64,000 bases of DNA from Candidatus Rifleibacterium amylolyticum (lineage in GTDB: Bacteria > Muiribacteriota > Ozemobacteria > Ozemobacterales > Ozemobacteraceae): the NCBI GenBank assembly GCA_009917695.1, contig JAACJG010000002.1:310001-374000 (forward strand), read 5' to 3'. Numbering within the stretch: position 1 is the stretch's first letter; the number at the start of each line of letters is the position of its first letter. The notes beneath the pieces are model-generated. The model worked only from the letters and a program-made list of their open reading frames with translations, searched no databases and was not told the DNA's origin. Below, in pieces: positions 54,552-64,000 of this stretch. Both the position numbers and the translations under genes were made by a program.

Positions 54552-55265
54552 CTATTCGACCGTTTTTTGCAGATCTTGAAGAAGCTCTACGAGTTCATAA
54601 ACAGTAGTTGCCGGGTTTGCACGTGCCGGAATCAATTTTCCATTCACCTCTACCGCCTGTTCGATCAGGCGTCGGGCATTCCTTACTGCTTCTGCCGTCC
54701 GACCGGCAAGAAAAGAGTACATATCATTTCCACTCTTGTCATACGCTCTGGCCATCGCCTTTTCAAGCCGATCGATAACCTGGTCGCGATCGATTGCAGT
54801 GTTGTGAAAATGAAAATGCAACAGATACCATAGTTCAAAACTTGGGTTCGACCAGGCAACCTTGACCGGCCCGCGACACTTCGAAGCTCGTTCAATCGCT
54901 GCATTAAAGTCCTCAAGCGTATGCCCGCCACCGCCATGTCTCTCTTCATCACGATCTATCACAATCCAGCGGTGTTCGTAATCATTGCTGGTTCGCCCGA
55001 CACTGTCTTTGAAGTTCAGCAGATCATTGAGTACGCCTGTTGGGTTGGTATGCTGATGTGGCGCAAACACGCAGGAAGCAGAAGAAATTGTTTTGCGCTC
55101 TTTCAGAATGGCAAAAAATGCGTCAAAATAAAGTCGTTCAGTATTTTTGCCTTCGCAGGCAAGAAGCACCAGCAATCTTGGCTGGTAGCGATTCTCGCTC
55201 CGCTTCAGCTTCGGAGCGATCTGCCTTTTTGCCGATCTCACGTTGTAATCTTTTCGGCGCGCCAT
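54552..55265 (-). CDS. RloB-like TOPRIM protein
   Basis: 237 residues. RloB pattern: LLVLLACEGKNTERLYFDAFF near the start (TOPRIM Glu in CEG), DYEHRWIVIDRDEERH (the DxD of TOPRIM), VAWSNPSFELWYLLHFHFH and a C-terminal helix. RloB partners an AAA ATPase (RloA) in type I restriction loci of Campylobacter, and a similar pair is known as AbiL (abortive infection). It starts 2 bases after the ATPase stop, so both are one operon. Probable effector nuclease of a two-gene anti-phage system; action not shown by sequence. Confidence 0.82.
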   Translation of the reverse strand: MARRKDYNVRSAKRQIAPKLKRSENRYQPRLLVLLACEGKNTERLYFDAFFAILKERKTISSASCVFAPHQHTNPTGVLNDLLNFKDSVGRTSNDYEHRWIVIDRDEERHGGGGHTLEDFNAAIERASKCRGPVKVAWSNPSFELWYLLHFHFHNTAIDRDQVIDRLEKAMARAYDKSGNDMYSFLAGRTAEAVRNARRLIEQAVEVNGKLIPARANPATTVYELVELLQDLQKTVE

Positions 55266-55267
55266 TG

Positions 55268-56530
55268 TTATTTTCCACCCGGAAAGCGGCCAACGTAAGG
55301 AATCGCGCCGTATTTTCCCTGAATGTAATGTTTTTCGAGATTATCGGTAGCCCTGACATTTTTATAATCGACCAGAGAATGCAGATGGGTAGACCCGAAA
55401 CGGTCTTTTTCGGTAAACCAGATCTGCGACTTATGAAAGAGTTTCTGATTCAACAGGTTGGTATCGTGACTGACAAAAATCAGCTGTGCGTTCCGGGTGT
55501 TGATGTCAGGGTTGTTGAAAAGTGAAATCAGCGCCATGGTAAGTAGCGGGTGCAGGCTTGCATCCAGCTCATCCACCAGCAGAATTTTTCCGTTGCGAAG
55601 AGTGTCGATAAACGGGGCAGACAAGCAGAAATACTTTTTTGTGCCTTCGGATTCGTCGCCGGCAAGGTCGAACTCTTCAAAGCCGACCGGAGCACCAGCT
55701 TCGTCATACTTCACGTGTATGGTTCGCGCACCTAGCTTTACCAGCGGAGAAGCGTTGGCCAGCATAGTATCTCTGATCTCTTTCGGCACCGGCAAATTAT
55801 CAATTTCATTAACCGGAACTCTGTCTTCGCGATGCTTCAAATCATCGATACCAAAGTCAGCGCTCGTTACCAATCGCTTTATCTCTTCATAGAACTCCGG
55901 TTTCTTCATTTGATTAAGGGTGTATAACAGGTAATCAGATGGCCTCATGCCATTGAGAAGGTTGACTTTCTTGAACCACTCAAGAATCGAACGCGCAACC
56001 TGGCCACCTTCCTGATCGCATTTCCAGATAAACAGACTGTTGGAAAGAACTTTCAGGCCTTTGCCTTCCTTGAATTTTTCAGGGTTGACGTAGAATTCAC
56101 CTGTATCACTGTCGCGAAAAAACAGCCTGGCTTCTTTTCCCTTTTCATCTGCGAACAGCCATTCAGAGTAGACGGTAGTGCTGTCGGCTTCAAACCCATA
56201 GCGGTATTTAACCTGATTGTTTAAAAAGATGACTTCAAATGAACTCGAAGCGTTCATGGTTTCAGTCGACAGCCTGAAAGGTTCGTGATTCAGAGTGTCA
56301 GTCGATTGAAAAACCTTACGCACATTCAAAACCATTGCTTTCATGTAGTCCAAAGCCCGCACAACATTGCTTTTGCCGCTGGCATTGGCACCATAGATCA
56401 CAGCTGATGGCAACAAGCTGTAATTTCTGGCCTTTATAACTGAATGCCGGTTGTTCAGCCCTGAAACCATGCTAAAAGTTACCTGGTCTTTGATTGATCT
56501 GAAGTTATCGAATGTGAACTGCACCAGCAT
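55268..56530 (-). CDS. RloA-like AAA ATPase (SMC/ABC-type)
   Basis: 420 residues. It begins with the OLD/RloA-type LVQFTFDNFRSIKDQVTFSM. Walker A is GANASGKS (47-54), Walker B is ILLVDELDASLHP, and the His switch is LIFVSHDTNLL. The middle part carries the dimer-forming coiled insertion (FYEEIKRLVTSADFGIDDLK). The C-terminal KHYIQGKYGAIPYVGRF is a common end for this family when paired with RloB. AAGGATG precedes ATG 56530. Likely the sensor or regulator of the pair. Confidence 0.86.
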   Translation of the reverse strand: MLVQFTFDNFRSIKDQVTFSMVSGLNNRHSVIKARNYSLLPSAVIYGANASGKSNVVRALDYMKAMVLNVRKVFQSTDTLNHEPFRLSTETMNASSSFEVIFLNNQVKYRYGFEADSTTVYSEWLFADEKGKEARLFFRDSDTGEFYVNPEKFKEGKGLKVLSNSLFIWKCDQEGGQVARSILEWFKKVNLLNGMRPSDYLLYTLNQMKKPEFYEEIKRLVTSADFGIDDLKHREDRVPVNEIDNLPVPKEIRDTMLANASPLVKLGARTIHVKYDEAGAPVGFEEFDLAGDESEGTKKYFCLSAPFIDTLRNGKILLVDELDASLHPLLTMALISLFNNPDINTRNAQLIFVSHDTNLLNQKLFHKSQIWFTEKDRFGSTHLHSLVDYKNVRATDNLEKHYIQGKYGAIPYVGRFPGGK

Positions 56531-56811: not shown

Positions 56812-58269
56812 ATGCTGACCGGGGAAATACGCAATAAAGTCGATAAACTATGGGAAGCTTTCTGGACTGGCGGCATCGCCAACCCGCTGACCGTAATAGA
56901 GCAGATATCCTATCTGCTGTTCATCAAGCGCCTCGATGACATTCATACGTTGAAAGAACTGCAGGCCAACCGAACCGGCAAGCCGATCAAGGACCCGGTA
57001 TTCAACGACAAACAGCAGCACCTGCGCTGGTCGAAATTCAAACACCTCGAACCGGGTGAGATGCTCGGGCTCTTTCAGGCCGAGGTTTTCCCGTTCATCA
57101 AGAATATGGCGACCGCCTCTGACACCACATTTGCCAGAGCAATGGCCGATGCAACTTTCATCATCCCGAAGGCCAGTCTGCTGACGCAGGCGGTTGAGCT
57201 CATCGAAGACATTCCGATGAAAGATCGCGATACCAAGGGCGACGTTTACGAATACATGCTCAGCAAGCTGTCTACAGCTGGCCAGAACGGGCAGTTCAGA
57301 ACCCCGCGCCATATCATCAGAATGATGGTCGAGCTGATGCAGCCAAAGGTTAAAGATTTCATCTGCGACCCGGCCTGTGGCACCGCCGGCTTTCTCGTTG
57401 CGGCAGGCGAATACATTAGAACCCATCAGGAAATCGACTACCATTCGGCTGACCACCGCGAGCACGTGAACGGCCGCCTGTTCAATGGTTTCGACTTCGA
57501 TACCACCATGCTGCGCATCGGCAGCATGAACATGATGATGCATGGCGTCGAAAACCCGCATATCATGTATAAAGACTCGCTTTCCGACAGCAACAAGGAA
57601 GCCGAGCAATATACGCTGATCCTGGCTAATCCACCGTTCAAGGGCAGTCTCGCCGAGAACGAAGTCTCCAAAAAGCTTCTTGAGACGGTTAAGACCAAGA
57701 AAACCGAACTGCTGTTTCTGGCTCTGATGCTGCGCCTGTTGAAAGCTGGCGGCAGATGTGCGGTTATTGTTCCTGACGGTGTGCTTTTCGGCTCATCCAA
57801 GGCCCACCTCGACATTCGGAAAGAGATAATCGACAATCATCGCCTTGAAGCAGTCATCTCGTTGCCAGCAGGCGTTTTCAAGCCTTACGCCGGCGTCAGC
57901 ACCGGAATCATGGTTTTCACCAAAACCGGCACCGGCGGCACTGACAATGTCTGGTTCTACGACATGCAGGCCGATGGTTTCAGTCTCGATGACAAGAGAA
58001 CCGAGATTTCCGTCAATGATATTCCTGATGTTATCAAGCGCTGGCATAATATTGAAGGAGAACACAAGCGAAAGCGAACCGACAAATCCTTCATGGTGCC
58101 GGTTGCCGACATCAGAAACGAAAAGTATGACCTGTCGATCAACCGCTACAAGCAGATCGTTTACGACGAAGTAAAATACGACAAGCCCAAAGACATCCTG
58201 GCCGAGATCATGAAGATGGAAAAAGAGATCCAGCAGGGCCTCGAAGAACTGGACGGTATGCTGGGATGA
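56812..58269 (+). CDS. hsdM: Type I restriction-modification system, methyltransferase (M) subunit
   Basis: 485 residues, full length. HsdM_N region 1-140 ([31 protein letters not shown]), S-adenosylmethionine site DPACGTAGF (186-194), catalytic NPPF (273-276), and [23 protein letters not shown] further on. It methylates adenine in complex with HsdS. The C-terminal LEELDGMLG is also found, copied, at 58609-58643 and 54492-54551. Its stop overlaps the start of a small repeat-bearing ORF by 4 bases (ATGA). Confidence 0.96.
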
Positions 58270-58643
58270 AGCGCATGATCAATTCGAATCCCCTCGAATT
58301 CGAGGGGTTAATGCATAATCAAAAAGTGCAGCAACCCGCCGCACAATTGCACTCAATTCGAACTGGCCACGAATTTGTGCAACAGACCGTTGCACAAATT
58401 TACAAGATCCCGCGCCACAACGATTTTGAGCAAGCACCCCTTGCACAATCACCTTCTGGCGAGAATAAAGAACGACCGCCTCTTACGATGGAACCGTCAA
58501 TTGACGACCCGCTGGCAGCAACCACCGTCACACCCGCGAAGGCGGGTGTCCAGAGAGAAAATATGGATTCCCGCCTGCGCGGGAATGACGGTATGTTGCT
58601 AAGAGAGAATAAACTCGAAGAACTGGACGGTATGCTGGGATGA
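58266..58643 (+). CDS. Small repeat-bearing ORF between hsdM and hsdS (copy 1)
   Basis: 125 codons. It begins [19 protein letters not shown] and includes an in-frame copy of the dispersed repeat (TPAKAGVQRENMDSRLRGNDG, about residues 88-108). It ends [10 protein letters not shown] with a stop that overlaps the next small ORF by 4 bases, exactly as hsdM does. So its 3' end is a copy of the hsdM tail. Residues 38-60 (GHEFVQQTVAQIYKIPRHN) faintly recall the VAQIPWGHN motif of DUF1016 nucleases and may be a relic. The frame may be translated by coupling to hsdM, but a real protein role is doubtful. Confidence 0.5.
   Translation: MKRMINSNPLEFEGLMHNQKVQQPAAQLHSIRTGHEFVQQTVAQIYKIPRHNDFEQAPLAQSPSGENKERPPLTMEPSIDDPLAATTVTPAKAGVQRENMDSRLRGNDGMLLRENKLEELDGMLG
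58372..58400. repeat. 12-bp perfect inverted repeat inside the first small ORF
   Basis: AATTTGTGCAAC (58372-58383), 5-base spacer, GTTGCACAAATT (58389-58400). It is absent from the second, otherwise similar ORF. Confidence 0.75.
58525..58591. repeat. Dispersed palindromic repeat, copy in frame
   Basis: 67 bases. The ends CCGTCA and TGACGG are inverted. Inside are two hairpins, CACCCGC-gaag-GCGGGTG and TTCCCGC-ctgc-GCGGGAA, separated by TCCAGAGAGAAAATATGGA. It is read through as part of the 58266 ORF. Confidence 0.85.
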
Positions 58644-58924
58644 GACGCATGATCAATTCTGATCCCCTCGATTTCGAGGGGTTAATTCATAATCAAAAAA
58701 TGCAGCGGGCCGCTGCACAATTACCTTCCGGCCAGAATAAAAAACGACCACCTCTTACGATGGAACCGTCAACTGACGACCCGCTGGCAGCAACCACCGT
58801 CACACCCGCGAAGGCGGGTGTCCAGAGAGAAAATATGGATTCCCGCCTGCGCGGGAATGGCAATTCTCACCGCGCAGGCGATGCTGCCAATGAATCTGCT
58901 GAACAAGGCGGTGCAGCAATATGA
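58640..58924 (+). CDS. Small repeat-bearing ORF between hsdM and hsdS (copy 2)
   Basis: 94 codons. The start RRMINSDPLDFEGLIHNQKMQ and the middle KKRPPLTMEPSTDDPLAATT match copy 1 ([41 protein letters not shown]), so this is a tandem duplicate lacking copy 1's central 40 residues. The dispersed repeat is again in frame (VTPAKAGVQRENMDSRLRGN). The stop overlaps the hsdS start by 4 bases. Retained ATGA junctions through the whole chain suggest selection for coupling between hsdM and hsdS translation rather than for the peptide. Confidence 0.5.
   Translation: MRRMINSDPLDFEGLIHNQKMQRAAAQLPSGQNKKRPPLTMEPSTDDPLAATTVTPAKAGVQRENMDSRLRGNGNSHRAGDAANESAEQGGAAI
58796..58860. repeat. Dispersed palindromic repeat, second in-frame copy, 3' end altered
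   Basis: Same unit as 58525-58591 up to TTCCCGCCTGCGCGGGAATG, after which the final GACGG is lost. Confidence 0.8.
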
Positions 58925-60105
58925 GCTGGCGAAAAGTTAAATTATCAGAAATTTTTGATATTGCTCGTGGTGGTTCGCCCAGACCAATTGATAGCTACAT
59001 ATCAGACGCACCTGATGCTGTAAACTGGGTTTCTATTAAAGATGCTTCTGAAAGTGGAAAATACATCCGCTCTACAAAGCTAAAAATAAAGCCTGAAGGT
59101 GTAAGCAAGTCAAGACTGGTCAAGCCTGGTGATTTTCTTCTGACCAATTCAATGAGCTTTGGCAGGCCATATATAATGCAGACAACCGGATGCATTCATG
59201 ACGGCTGGTTGGTGCTATCTGATAAATCAGGGGGTGTAGACCCAGATTTCTTGTATTACCTATTAGGAAGCCCAGAAATGTATCAAGAGTTTGCAAAAAA
59301 AGCAGCTGGGGCTGTTGTAAAGAACTTAAACATTGATCTGGTAAAAGGAGTTTCGGTTAGTCTCCCACCTCTGCCGGTTCAGAAGAAGATTGCGGCGGTG
59401 CTGGAGAAGGCCGATGAGTTGCGGCGCAAGCGTGAAGAGCAGATAAAGCGGCTTGATGATCTGCTGCAGGCAACCTTTCTCGATATGTTCGGCGATCCAG
59501 TCACCAACCCGAAGGGGTGGCCAATAGTGCAAATAAAGGATTTTGCTGATGTAAGGATTGGCCCTTTCGGTAGTTTGTTGCACGTAGAAGATTACGTTGA
59601 AAATGGTGTTCCCCTCGTTAACCCTTCTCATATAGCAAATGGCGTTATAGTTCCCGATCAAAAGCTCACTTTAAGTTATGAAAAATTTGATGAGCTCTCT
59701 GCTTACGCTTTGACGAAAGGTGATGTTGTTATTGGCAGGAGAGGCGAAATCGGCCGGTGTGCAGTCGTAAAAGATGAAAGATTGTTTTGTGGGACTGGCA
59801 GTATGTTTGTTCGGATCAAAAATTCGTTTATTCCTGAGATTTTGCAGAAAATTATTTCATCAGATCAGATAAAGCAGTATCTACTAAATCAATCTGTCGG
59901 AGTAACAATGAAGAACCTTAATGCTAGTATAATCAAAGAATTGGGAATACCAAAGCTTCCTTTATCTTTGCAAAATCAGTTCTACAACATTTCACAGCGA
60001 CTGATTCAGACAAAACAAAATATACAATCATCAGCAATCACTACATCAAGCATGTTCAACTCCCTCATGCAGCGGGCGTTCAAAGGAGAACTGGAGCTGA
60101 AATGA
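58921..60105 (+). CDS. hsdS: Type I restriction-modification system, specificity (S) subunit
   Basis: 394 residues. Two target-recognition domains: the first at about 1-145 (WRKVKLSEIFDIARGGSPRP ... GAVVKNLNIDLVKGVSVSLPPL), the second at about 195-350 (GWPIVQIKDFADVRIGPFGSLL ... NQSVGVTMKNLNASIIKELGIPKLPL). Between them lies the conserved helical spacer PVQKKIAAVLEKADELRRKREEQIKRLDDLLQ. A second helical spacer is at the C-terminus, shortened. It determines the DNA sequence bound by the HsdM/HsdR complex. The DNA of both recognition domains is more AT-rich than hsdM or the spacer, as is common in exchangeable hsdS segments. The stop is 3 bases before a repeat cluster. Confidence 0.94.
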   Translation: MSWRKVKLSEIFDIARGGSPRPIDSYISDAPDAVNWVSIKDASESGKYIRSTKLKIKPEGVSKSRLVKPGDFLLTNSMSFGRPYIMQTTGCIHDGWLVLSDKSGGVDPDFLYYLLGSPEMYQEFAKKAAGAVVKNLNIDLVKGVSVSLPPLPVQKKIAAVLEKADELRRKREEQIKRLDDLLQATFLDMFGDPVTNPKGWPIVQIKDFADVRIGPFGSLLHVEDYVENGVPLVNPSHIANGVIVPDQKLTLSYEKFDELSAYALTKGDVVIGRRGEIGRCAVVKDERLFCGTGSMFVRIKNSFIPEILQKIISSDQIKQYLLNQSVGVTMKNLNASIIKELGIPKLPLSLQNQFYNISQRLIQTKQNIQSSAITTSSMFNSLMQRAFKGELELK

Positions 60106-60108
60106 CCC

Positions 60109-60256
60109 TTATCCGTCACACCCGCGAAGGCGGTTCTTATTTATCGTCACACCCGCGAAGGCGGGTGTCCAGAGAGAGAAAATATGGATTCCCGCCTCCG
60201 CGGGAATGACGAGAAGGTAGAGCGGGAATGACGAGAAGGTAGCGCGGGAATGACGA
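60109..60256. repeat. Composite repeat cluster, left of the GIY-YIG gene
   Basis: A truncated unit (CCGTCACACCCGCGAAGGCGG, from 60113), then a complete unit (60145-60211), then two short units of GCGGGAATGACGAGAAGGTA type. The whole stretch from TTATCCGTCA is repeated in the same orientation at 60682-60818. Confidence 0.82.
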
Positions 60257-60312: not shown

Positions 60313-60639
60313 ATGGGAAGATCGGAAAAACAGCCTTGCGTTTATGTTCTTGCCAGCAAAAGAAATGGAACTTTGTATATCGGGGTAACCAGTAATCTGG
60401 TTCAGCGCATCTGGCAGCATAAGAACAATGAAGTTGAAGGCTTTACAAAAAAGTATCAGGTTCATCTCCTGGTTTATTATGAATTGCACGAGACAATGGA
60501 ATCAGCGATAACTCGTGAAAAACGCATGAAAAAATGGAACCGGGACTGGAAGATAAATTTCATTGAAAAAGAAAACCCGGAGTGGCATGATTTGTGGAGT
60601 GGTATCGTTGAAGATAGATTCCCGCCTGCGCGGGAATGA
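60313..60639 (+). CDS. GIY-YIG nuclease-domain protein
   Basis: 108 residues, one GIY-YIG domain of the small YhbQ/UPF0213-like type. CVYVLASKRNGTLYIGVTSNLVQRIWQHK carries both Tyr and the Arg; YYELHETMESAITREKRMKKWNRDWK carries the metal-binding Glu. The C-terminus ENPEWHDLWSGIVEDR is usual, but the last five residues and the stop (FPPARE) come from a dispersed repeat unit that begins at 60618. It lies between two direct copies of a composite repeat and separates hsdS from hsdR. AGAGGGG precedes ATG 60313. Such proteins cut or nick DNA; a link to the repeats' mobility is a hypothesis. Confidence 0.85.
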   Translation: MGRSEKQPCVYVLASKRNGTLYIGVTSNLVQRIWQHKNNEVEGFTKKYQVHLLVYYELHETMESAITREKRMKKWNRDWKINFIEKENPEWHDLWSGIVEDRFPPARE

Positions 60640-60818
60640 CGGAAGAGTGCGCGGGAATGACGAGAAGGTAGAGCGAAACCTTTATCCGTCACACCCGCGA
60701 AGGCGGTTCTTACTTATCGTCACACCCGCGAAGGCGGGTGTCCAGAGAGAGAAGATAGATTCCCGCCTGCGCGGGAATGACGAGAAGGTAGCGCGGGAAT
60801 GACGAGAAGGTAGAGCGG
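60618..60818. repeat. Composite repeat cluster, right of the GIY-YIG gene
   Basis: Starts with a half unit (ATTCCCGCCTGCGCGGGAAT, 60618-60637). The segment from 60682 repeats 60109-60256 with few changes: a truncated CCGTCA unit, a complete unit (about 60718-60782) and short GCGGGAATGACGAGAAGGTA units. Confidence 0.82.
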
Positions 60819-60830: not shown

Positions 60831-60848
60831 GATATTGAAAGCAGCGTG

Positions 60849-63800
60849 ATGAATAACGACAATACACAGAGTGACAAGCAGAATAATCAGAGACAGAGCA
60901 ATTTCAGCTTTATCGATGATGAACTGAAGCAGATTAGAGAGTTTGCGCAGAAAGCGGAACTGCGCGGGCGGCTCGACTCCAGATATGCCTGCTTTCAGGC
61001 CAGACTGACGGCAGAAACTGCCCTCAAATGGATATTCAAGGTTGATTCTGAGCTGTCTCTGCCTTATAACACCATGCTCAGCAGCCTGATCAATGATACC
61101 GGCTTTCAGAAAATTGCTCCAATTCAGGTTAAACGCAGCCTGACCATTATTCAGAAATACGGCAACCTGGCTGCACACAGCGAACATGCGATATCAGCCC
61201 AGGACTCGGTTCTTGTCGTCAAGCAGCTGCACAGCGTTCTTTTCTGGCTGCATCGAAACTATTTCGATGTCGATCTGCAGTCAGAATTCAACGACAAGCT
61301 TATTCCCGATGCCGGTGATATCGCCAGAACCAGTCGCAACAAGATTCTTGAGCTCGAACAGAAACACGAAGACGAAGAAAAAAAGCTCAGAGACGCCCTT
61401 GAGGCAGAAAAAGCCGACAAAGAAGCTTACCAGGCCAGACTAACCGCACAGGAAGCCGAAATCGCGCAGCTGAAGGCACAAATCGCCACAAAGAAAGCTG
61501 AAGCAGAGGCTGTTCCTGATACGCATGATTATTCTGAAGCCGAGACCAGAAAACTACTCATCGACGTGCTGCTCAGAGAAGCCGGCTGGCACAAAGGCTC
61601 ACCGAACCTGAAAGAAGAATACGAACTCGACGGCATCGACAGGAACAAGAATTATACCGGCACCGGCTTTGCCGACTACGTTCTCTTCGACGACAACGGA
61701 CTGCCGCTGGCAGTCATCGAGGCCAAGAAAACCAGCAAAGATGCGCAGCTCGGCAAATATCAGGCACTCGACTACGCCAACGCGCTTACAAAAAAGTTCA
61801 ACCAGCGCCCGTTGATCTTTTATACCAACGGCTATGAAATCTTCATCTGGGACGACCACTTCTACCCGGAACGAAAGATTCAGGGCTTCTACAAAAAAGA
61901 CGAGCTACAGCTGGCAATAGAGCGCCGAAAATCACGAAAATCCATACTCAACCCGACGATCAACCGCAAGACGGTCGAGCGACCCTACCAGCACCTTGCC
62001 ATACGGGCAGTTACCGAACATTTTGAGACGAAGAATCAAAGAAGAGCTCTGCTGGTGATGGCTACCGGCTCTGGCAAGACCAGGCTCACGATTGCTCTGG
62101 TTGAAGTGCTGCAGAAAGCCAACTGGGCCAAGCGTGTGCTGTTTCTGTGCGATCGCGATTCGCTGGTAAAACAGGCCAAAGGCGCGTTCACGAAATTTCT
62201 GCCGAACTGCCCGGCGGCTGATCTGAGAGATGCGAAGTCTGACAATCTTTCCAGAGTCTGCCTGTCGACCTATCACACGATGATGAACCTGATCAACGAG
62301 TTCAAAGACGGCGAGAGACTGTTTACACCGGGCCATTTCGATCTGCTGGTCATCGACGAGGCCCACCGCAGCATTTACCAGAAGTTCGGCGCGATCTTCG
62401 ATTACTTCGATTCTTACCTGGTCGGCCTGACCGCAACGCCCAGAGATGAAGTCGATAAGAACACCTACCAGATGTTTAACCTGACCAGAGAGACCGGCCC
62501 GGTGTTCGGTTATGACCTCGCCGAAGCCATAGAACAGGGCTATCTGCTGAACTATTACAAGGCCACAGTGTCAACCAAGCTCAGCCGCGAAGGCCTCACC
62601 TACTCGCAGCTCAGTGATGAAGACAAAGAAGAGTATGACAAACACTTCGTCGATGAAGTTACCGGTGAAAGGCCCGAGAAAGTCGGCAAGGAAGCGATCA
62701 ACAAGTGGTTGTTCAATACCCCCACGGTCGATAATTTCCTGAAAGATCTTATGGAAAAAGGCATCAAGATCGATGGCGGCGACAAGCTCGGCAAAACCAT
62801 CATATTTGCGCGCAACAGCGACCATGCGAAGTTCATCGTCACTAGATTCGACGCCAATTACCCGCAACACAAGGGGCATTTCTGCGCACAGATCGACTAC
62901 ACCCTCGGCAAAGATGCAGAAGGCATGATCGACAAGTTCAAAAAGGCAGACGGTATGCCTCAGATAGCGGTCTCGGTCGATATGCTCGATACCGGGATCG
63001 ATGTTCCTGAAGTCGTGAACCTGGTATTTGCCAAGCCAGTGTATTCGAAAGTGAAGTTCTGGCAGATGATCGGCCGTGGCACGAGAAAGTGCGAAGACCT
63101 GTTCGGGCCCGGTGACGATAAAAAGTGCTTCTATGTATTCGACTACTGCGAGAATTTCGAATTCTTCGAAACCAACCCCGGCGGTGTTGAAAGTAACGCC
63201 GTGATTCCGCTAAGCCAGCGAATCTTCAGAAACCGCCTGGTATTGGCTGAAATGTTGCAGGATAACGACAGCGAAGAGTCAGCGGCGATCAGAAAAGAGT
63301 TTCTCGACAACCTGCACGAATACGTGTCAGGCATGTGCGATGAGAACTTTCTGGTGCGGCCATACCTGAAAAGTGTAACGAAACTGAAGAGCCGTGAGGC
63401 CTGGGAAAATCTCGACTCTGAGCTGAGAGCTGAAGTAGCGAAGAACATATCAGGATTACCCAGTCAGATCGAACAAGACGATGAATACGCCCGGCGCTGG
63501 GATCACCTGCTGCTGAAGACCGAACTGGCATTGTTTGAACATGAAGCCATGAAAAAGCTCAATAGATCTTCGGCTGAATACATATCTCTGATGAAAAAAA
63601 TCAGAAAAATTGCAGACAGGCTCGAAGACAAGACGACGATACCTGACGTCAAGAAGCAGCTGGAATTCATTCAGGCGATACAAACAGATGAGTTCTGGGA
63701 AGGCATGAACATCAAGGTTCTCGAAGAGATCAGAAAGCGCCTCAGACTGCTGATCAAATACATCGATCAGGCTGATAAGAAAATCGTTTATTCGAACTTC

Positions 63801-64000
63801 AGCGACACCCTGACCCAGCCCGCAGCATTCGAGCCAGGCACCGAGGTATTCAAAAACGATGAGCTTGCTGCCTACCGGCAGAAAATGAGCGCCGTCATCA
63901 ATGAAAACCTTGATAAAGAAGTGATCTGGAAGGTTCGCTGCAATCGCCCGCTTACTGATTCCGATCTCAGGCAGCTCGAAGAGATTCTTGACCTGAGCAC
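60849..64000 (+). CDS. hsdR: Type I restriction-modification system, restriction (R) subunit, 3' end outside window
   Basis: At least 1050 residues, open to the window edge. Residues 15-135 form a DUF4145-like domain (ELKQIREFAQKAELRGRLD ... NLAAHSEHAISAQDSVLVVKQLH), and a coiled coil follows (about 165-215). The PD-(D/E)xK nuclease has Asp276 (GFADYV) and Glu291-Ala-Lys293 (VIEAKK). The helicase has ATGSGKT (405-411), DEAH (503-506), LTATP (527-531) and later motifs SVDMLDTGIDVPEVVNLVF and QMIGRGTR. It translocates DNA with ATP and cuts when the HsdM/S complex meets unmodified sites. ATG 60849 has only GAAAGC before it. Cut off from hsdS by the repeat/GIY-YIG insert, it seems to have its own promoter. 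Confidence 0.95.
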   Translation, partial: MNNDNTQSDKQNNQRQSNFSFIDDELKQIREFAQKAELRGRLDSRYACFQARLTAETALKWIFKVDSELSLPYNTMLSSLINDTGFQKIAPIQVKRSLTIIQKYGNLAAHSEHAISAQDSVLVVKQLHSVLFWLHRNYFDVDLQSEFNDKLIPDAGDIARTSRNKILELEQKHEDEEKKLRDALEAEKADKEAYQARLTAQEAEIAQLKAQIATKKAEAEAVPDTHDYSEAETRKLLIDVLLREAGWHKGSPNLKEEYELDGIDRNKNYTGTGFADYVLFDDNGLPLAVIEAKKTSKDAQLGKYQALDYANALTKKFNQRPLIFYTNGYEIFIWDDHFYPERKIQGFYKKDELQLAIERRKSRKSILNPTINRKTVERPYQHLAIRAVTEHFETKNQRRALLVMATGSGKTRLTIALVEVLQKANWAKRVLFLCDRDSLVKQAKGAFTKFLPNCPAADLRDAKSDNLSRVCLSTYHTMMNLINEFKDGERLFTPGHFDLLVIDEAHRSIYQKFGAIFDYFDSYLVGLTATPRDEVDKNTYQMFNLTRETGPVFGYDLAEAIEQGYLLNYYKATVSTKLSREGLTYSQLSDEDKEEYDKHFVDEVTGERPEKVGKEAINKWLFNTPTVDNFLKDLMEKGIKIDGGDKLGKTIIFARNSDHAKFIVTRFDANYPQHKGHFCAQIDYTLGKDAEGMIDKFKKADGMPQIAVSVDMLDTGIDVPEVVNLVFAKPVYSKVKFWQMIGRGTRKCEDLFGPGDDKKCFYVFDYCENFEFFETNPGGVESNAVIPLSQRIFRNRLVLAEMLQDNDSEESAAIRKEFLDNLHEYVSGMCDENFLVRPYLKSVTKLKSREAWENLDSELRAEVAKNISGLPSQIEQDDEYARRWDHLLLKTELALFEHEAMKKLNRSSAEYISLMKKIRKIADRLEDKTTIPDVKKQLEFIQAIQTDEFWEGMNIKVLEEIRKRLRLLIKYIDQADKKIVYSNFSDTLTQPAAFEPGTEVFKNDELAAYRQKMSAVINENLDKEVIWKVRCNRPLTDSDLRQLEEILDLS

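Follow-up and report, generated by a model that had tools for sequence, protein, structure and literature searches.

On the plus strand of the window, a 64,000-nucleotide stretch from Candidatus Riflebacteria, lies a complete type I restriction operon in the order hsdM, ORF1, ORF2, hsdS, a GIY-YIG ORF and hsdR, the last gene running past the window end. Pfam and PADLOC found hsdM, hsdS and hsdR present together, in keeping with a type I restriction-modification system. The features of the operon are as follows.

56812–58269, plus strand: hsdM, type I methyltransferase subunit, 485 aa (Pfam HsdM_N and N6_Mtase; PADLOC MTase_I, 2e-193)
58240–58269, plus strand: hsdM tail, source of the copied segment (sequence; BLAST of the window against itself)
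58266–58643, plus strand: ORF1, 125 aa, first spacer copy, ATGA overlap with hsdM; no Pfam match
58290–58307, unstranded: palindrome CCCCTCGAATTCGAGGGG in copy 1; perfect matches in the genome are the two spacer copies only
58326–58344, 58375–58397 and 58425–58449, plus strand: three VQQxxAQ motif units in ORF1, the middle one a 13-pair hairpin
58467–58581, plus strand: stretch 92% identical, in the same frame, to the DUF1016–hsdS spacer of the relative G004
58525–58591, unstranded: CGTC-REP dimer 1, in-frame reading TPAKAGVQRENMDSRLRGND; fold −43 kcal/mol, z −8.1 (definition from PMC3733652)
58614–58643, plus strand: copied hsdM tail, which ends ORF1 and supplies the ATGA start of ORF2 (sequence, self-BLAST)
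58640–58924, plus strand: ORF2, 94 aa, second spacer copy, ATGA overlap with hsdS
58700–58718, plus strand: the one VQRAAAQ-type palindrome of copy 2, sharing 20 identical nt with that of the G004 DUF1016 gene
58797–58860, unstranded: CGTC-REP dimer 2, with GGC in place of the second tag; fold −40 kcal/mol, z −6.7
58921–60105, plus strand: hsdS, specificity subunit, 394 aa, intact (Pfam, PADLOC)
60144–60211, unstranded: CGTC-REP dimer 3, in the interval from hsdS to the GIY-YIG gene
60313–60639, plus strand: short GIY-YIG nuclease ORF (PF01541, 2e-17)
60618–60782, unstranded: single CGTC REP (60618) and CGTC-REP dimer 4 (60722/60759)
60846–64000 in the window, running on to 64367, plus strand: hsdR, type I restriction subunit, 1173 aa (L051, Pfam, PADLOC)

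A minus-strand pair of AAA ATPase and RloB genes (window positions 54552–56530), classed as AbiL-like by PADLOC, adjoins the operon. In the relative G003 (HsdM 90% identical), hsdM is immediately followed by sequence similar to this stretch; as no hsdS was found after hsdM, this genome is uninformative on the junction.

The initial annotation had described two tandem ORFs between hsdM and hsdS joined by ATGA junctions, and the sequence bears this out. Both ORFs are open, and the overlapping stop and start of a translationally coupled pair were found at all three borders, at 58266 (hsdM/ORF1), 58640 (ORF1/ORF2) and 58921 (ORF2/hsdS). Its proposal that DNA from the hsdM stop region had been duplicated was likewise confirmed. 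BLAST of the window against itself revealed two duplicated blocks, one of 109 nt with 90% identity (58240–58348 versus 58614–58722), which includes the hsdM tail, and one of 146 nt with 96% identity (58442–58587 versus 58714–58859), which includes the repeat. The block offsets of 374 and 272 nt leave a net difference of 102 nt (34 codons), which is in frame. Copy 1 ends in the copied hsdM tail, as had been claimed, and the ATGA between ORF1 and ORF2 is an automatic by-product of that tail whenever the frame is right (1 in 3).

Both ORFs also carry the translated palindromic repeat reported at the outset, read as TPAKAGVQ..DSRLRGN, with stem-loops at 58530/58567 in copy 1 and 58802/58839 in copy 2. 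The initial annotation had missed that this repeat is a CGTC-REP dimer and that such repeats also flank the downstream GIY-YIG gene. The repeat consists of two stem-loops in opposite orientation (translation PAKAGVQRENMDSRLRGN), the first unit being CGTC-ACACCCGC-GAAG-GCGGGTGT-CCA and the second TGG-ATTCCCGC-CTGC-GCGGGAAT-GACG. The reverse of 58567–58586 with its flanks reads CGTC-ATTCCCGC-GCAG-GCGGGAAT-CCA and thus shows the CGTC tag, 8-bp stem, 4-nt loop and CCA tail of a CGTC-1 REP; pairing in opposite orientation and readability in frame are further likenesses to the published elements (PMC3733652). The stems of CGTC-1 REPs almost invariably start with A and T (PMC3733652), a feature that each dimer shows in its second unit but not in its first, where the stem is ACACCCGC instead of ATTCCCGC. 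A high copy number per genome is a further CGTC-1 feature; the present genome holds only about ten perfect-stem copies, another difference from the published elements, and the host ORFs here are short and without a Pfam match. Neisserial dRS3 and rickettsial RPE-6 are members of the CGTC-1 family of tagged REPs, for which locations inside ORFs have already been described (PMC3733652). Rickettsia palindromic elements (cited in PMC3733652) resemble the present repeat in being palindromes translated within an ORF, but they sit in recognisable functional proteins, whereas Pfam recognised neither ORF1 nor ORF2 as such.

Within the 64-kb window, CGTC REPs are confined to this operon, where four dimers and one single were found: two dimers in the hsdM–hsdS spacer, and two dimers and the single around the GIY-YIG gene. 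The whole genome yielded 15 matches at ≤2 mismatches, ten of them with a perfect stem and half of the latter in this operon. At ≤2 mismatches, G004 yielded 66 matches and other genus members 2–3, of which 0–1 were perfect. More CGTC REPs of this genome lie near another methyltransferase-like match and a DUF1016 gene (G000:C1:571936–574847). A wider repeat family for the palindrome CCCCTCGAATTCGAGGGG was considered and rejected; beyond the two spacer copies, relatives gave only scattered imperfect matches.

The VQQ..AQ palindromes of the spacer belong to the DUF1016 family, which had also escaped the initial annotation. Across 22 relative genomes, the 23-bp palindrome of ORF1, TTGTGCA(A/G)..TGCACAA, was found at five other sites, each within a DUF1016 gene and in the frame used by ORF1, where it is read as VQQ/VQR/VQG..AQ; the hairpin at these sites measures 9–12 bp, against a background of about 4 bp. 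The in-frame VQQxxAQ motif, which ORF1 and ORF2 both contain, is our own marker for DUF1016 and not a published defining feature. DUF1016/YhcG accessory genes of hsd operons (PADLOC PDC-S02) share with the two ORFs the hsdM–hsdS slot, the motif and its frame; unlike them, ORF1 and ORF2 lack both domains, as neither DUF1016_N nor YhcG_C was found by Pfam. DUF1016 homology over the whole of ORF1 and ORF2 was rejected, the protein alignment not being significant outside the motif. In the DUF1016/YhcG genes L163, L165, L166, L168 and L151, a perfect 9–12 bp hairpin lies exactly at the VQ(Q/R/G)xxAQ codons, which makes it another translated palindrome besides the REPs, and the DUF1016 genes of G002 and G003 contain a second VQQ unit.

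Among the relatives, G004, whose HsdM is 91% identical, is the nearest to have a comparable operon. Its slot, overlooked in the initial annotation, holds a full DUF1016/YhcG nuclease gene (YhcG_C, 3e-63) followed by a REP-bearing spacer ORF that overlaps the end of the nuclease gene and meets hsdS at an ATGA. This spacer ORF is homologous to the window ORFs, with 92% identity over 115 nt in the same frame (MISNKIKKRPPLTMEPSIDDPLAATTVTPEQAGVQ...GGAIA). No spacer homologue was found outside G004 among 40 genomes of the phylum.

Comparison of 80 named hsdM loci revealed hsdS nearby in 72, with a direct 4-nt hsdM/hsdS overlap in 38 of the 72. An hsdM–hsdS insert of at least 250 nt was present in 12 of the 72 loci and contained DUF1016 in six; the contents of other inserts were a schlafen-like protein (L079), a GIY-YIG protein (L074) and a 23S rRNA-intervening-sequence protein (L146). 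Five of the 12 inserts finish in a 4-nt overlap with hsdS, among them those of L074, where the tail of the insert protein contains in-frame repeat-like sequence, and L146, which has an N-terminal repeat extension. In the operons L119, L133 and L007, hsdS lies behind an uncoupled gap. In L074 and L077 (7500–8100; Geobacter and Desulfuromonadaceae relatives), hsdM does not stop at its usual end but continues into repeat-like sequence; the GIY-YIG ORF that follows has a tail of repeat-like character and, in L074, the 4-nt overlap with hsdS. A Bacteroidetes MAG (L087, 1859–5690) carries three tandem DUF1016 ORFs between hsdM and hsdS, the first of them short and their N-termini near-identical, and a further DUF1016-like ORF in the same interval.

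The initial annotation held that ribosomes can pass from hsdM to hsdS through the insert. Translational coupling of hsdM and hsdS is published for EcoKI (PMC3510504), whose junction shares with the present one a stop/start overlap, a frame change at the border and cotranscription of the genes; unlike in EcoKI, two extra ORFs lie between the genes here, and coupling would have to cross three overlaps. Dinucleotide shuffles stayed open in 1.8% of cases for the ORF1 interior and 4.7% for the ORF2 interior, two tests that are not independent, given the homology of the copies and the frame that part of ORF1 inherited from a coding motif. Between the copies we counted 6 synonymous and 11 nonsynonymous substitutions and no stops, about the neutral expectation, and the chance of no stop after 17 neutral changes is about 0.56. 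The window and G004 spacers differ by 2 synonymous and 7 nonsynonymous changes, again with no stop and neutral in appearance. No purifying selection on the spacer peptides was seen in either comparison. The sequence AAGGCGGTG inside the end of ORF2 is a possible Shine-Dalgarno of hsdS (anti-SD pairing −10.5 kcal/mol), and hsdS may therefore not need coupling. No internal promoter for hsdS was found on the coding strand within the insert, and the terminator-like matches there are all on the minus strand.

Ribosome passage is possible and draws some support from the EcoKI precedent, from the frame kept through the duplication junction and the change in length by 34 codons, from the G004 ATGA overlap and from the five of 12 inserts that overlap hsdS. 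The lack of detectable selection, the non-independent 2–5% openness of shuffles, the ORF1/ORF2 overlap gained with the copied tail, the Shine-Dalgarno of hsdS and the uncoupled gaps of some operons weigh against it. A bridge is moderately supported as a possibility and little supported as a proven selected function.

We lean slightly towards reading the insert as a remodelled accessory-gene slot that was duplicated in tandem and would still be readable for ribosomes from hsdM to hsdS. The DUF1016-filled slots of G004 and other hsdM loci make a remodelled accessory-gene slot the best reading of the spacer, and since ORF1 and ORF2 carry the VQQxxAQ of DUF1016 genes in the same frame, the slot can be read as decayed and duplicated. 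The ancestor shared with G004 would have had hsdM, a DUF1016/YhcG nuclease gene, a CGTC-REP spacer ORF and hsdS, every junction being a stop/start overlap. The lineage of the window would have lost the nuclease gene except for its palindromic VQQxxAQ motif, a loss that is an inference, as no DUF1016 sequence is left outside the palindrome. What remained, together with the hsdM end, would have been duplicated in tandem. As the insert is readable end to end, ribosomes leaving hsdM could re-start at each ATGA and reach hsdS. Such passage would keep the message translated across the strongly folding repeats, and selection may have maintained the openness.

It is a serious possibility, short of probable, that the insert is noncoding repeat debris open by chance, with overlaps that go back to the ancestral hsdM/hsdS junction and were multiplied by the duplication, and with hsdS using its own Shine-Dalgarno. 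The insert would then be open because the CGTC REPs and the coding-derived motif hold few stops in that frame. The neutral-looking substitutions fit this account, as do the openness of 2–5% per ORF expected by chance with strong non-independence, the anti-SD pairing before hsdS and the origin of the ORF1/ORF2 ATGA in the copied tail. It sits less easily with a frame preserved despite 102 nt of length difference, across the duplication junction and in the differing 3' parts of G004, with the G004 spacer ORF, likewise open and overlapping hsdS, and with the 4-nt overlap often kept by insert ORFs of unrelated operons. We think it unlikely, if compatible with the slot history, that the hairpins are RNA or DNA elements (acting in mRNA stability, or as putative GIY-YIG nuclease sites) and the openness incidental. 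The strong folds of the REP dimers (−43 and −40 kcal/mol; z −8.1 and −6.7), the same REPs around the downstream GIY-YIG gene and the cognate REPs flanking its homologues elsewhere agree with such elements, but a nuclease-site role explains neither the position between hsdM and hsdS nor the kept frame. That ORF1 and ORF2 are functional small proteins, for example restriction enzyme regulators or remnants with a DNA-binding role, is highly improbable: both starts lie in ATGA context and the stretch KRPPLTMEPSxDDPLAATTVTP is common to the window and G004, but translated repeats dominate the composition, and the idea was rejected because neither ORF has a family match in Pfam and synonymous changes are not in excess. 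The spacer peptides are probably filler without function.

Extending the remodelled-slot reading, we raise as a doubtful generalisation that openness and overlap are the condition for repeat DNA to persist between hsdM and hsdS, with REP dimers and gene scars serving as selected bridges whose peptide drifts freely. If so, inserts in many phyla should show frame conservation without amino-acid conservation. Were the bridge real, an operon needing balanced HsdM and HsdS could absorb insertions provided that the insert is readable, its peptide being meaningless; this demand would be a selective filter on repeat DNA, and one of potential relevance to the many hsd operons with slot inserts; and short ORFs of translated REPs could matter without a functional protein. 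The initial annotation had regarded the use of translated repeats as a bridge in a restriction operon as new. Each ingredient is already known, be it coupled hsdM/hsdS overlaps (PMC3510504), in-frame REPs (PMC3733652) or accessory genes of hsd operons, but their combination is unusual, and what is new is a tandem pair of REP-filled filler ORFs preserving every overlap.

The GIY-YIG gene of the window (60313–60639) has CGTC REPs on both sides (60144–60211 and 60618–60782). A 2013 survey described no dedicated enzyme for CGTC REPs (PMC3733652). CGTC-type REPs were found near the gene in 13 of 17 other GIY-YIG homologue loci (L198, L201–L209, L211, L213 and L214), from alpha-, beta- and gammaproteobacteria; resemblance to the window gene was the basis for choosing the 17 loci, related rhizobia contribute several of them and some genomes are REP-rich, so the association carries no formal null. 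REP flanks were absent at the more distant GIY-YIG relatives scanned within the phylum (L184–L186, L188, L195 and L197), and a search of viral contigs gave a single homologous locus, without REPs. Ssn, a GIY-YIG family of site-specific single-strand nucleases with a repeated target in Neisseria, was reportedly described in 2025, and that report may well cover the link between GIY-YIG genes and CGTC REPs already. In most of the REP-flanked loci, a REP lies about 45–110 nt before and 25–60 nt after the matched region, with heads outward in the simplest cases, and the REP type varies by lineage (stem 8/loop 4, 8/5 or 9/5).
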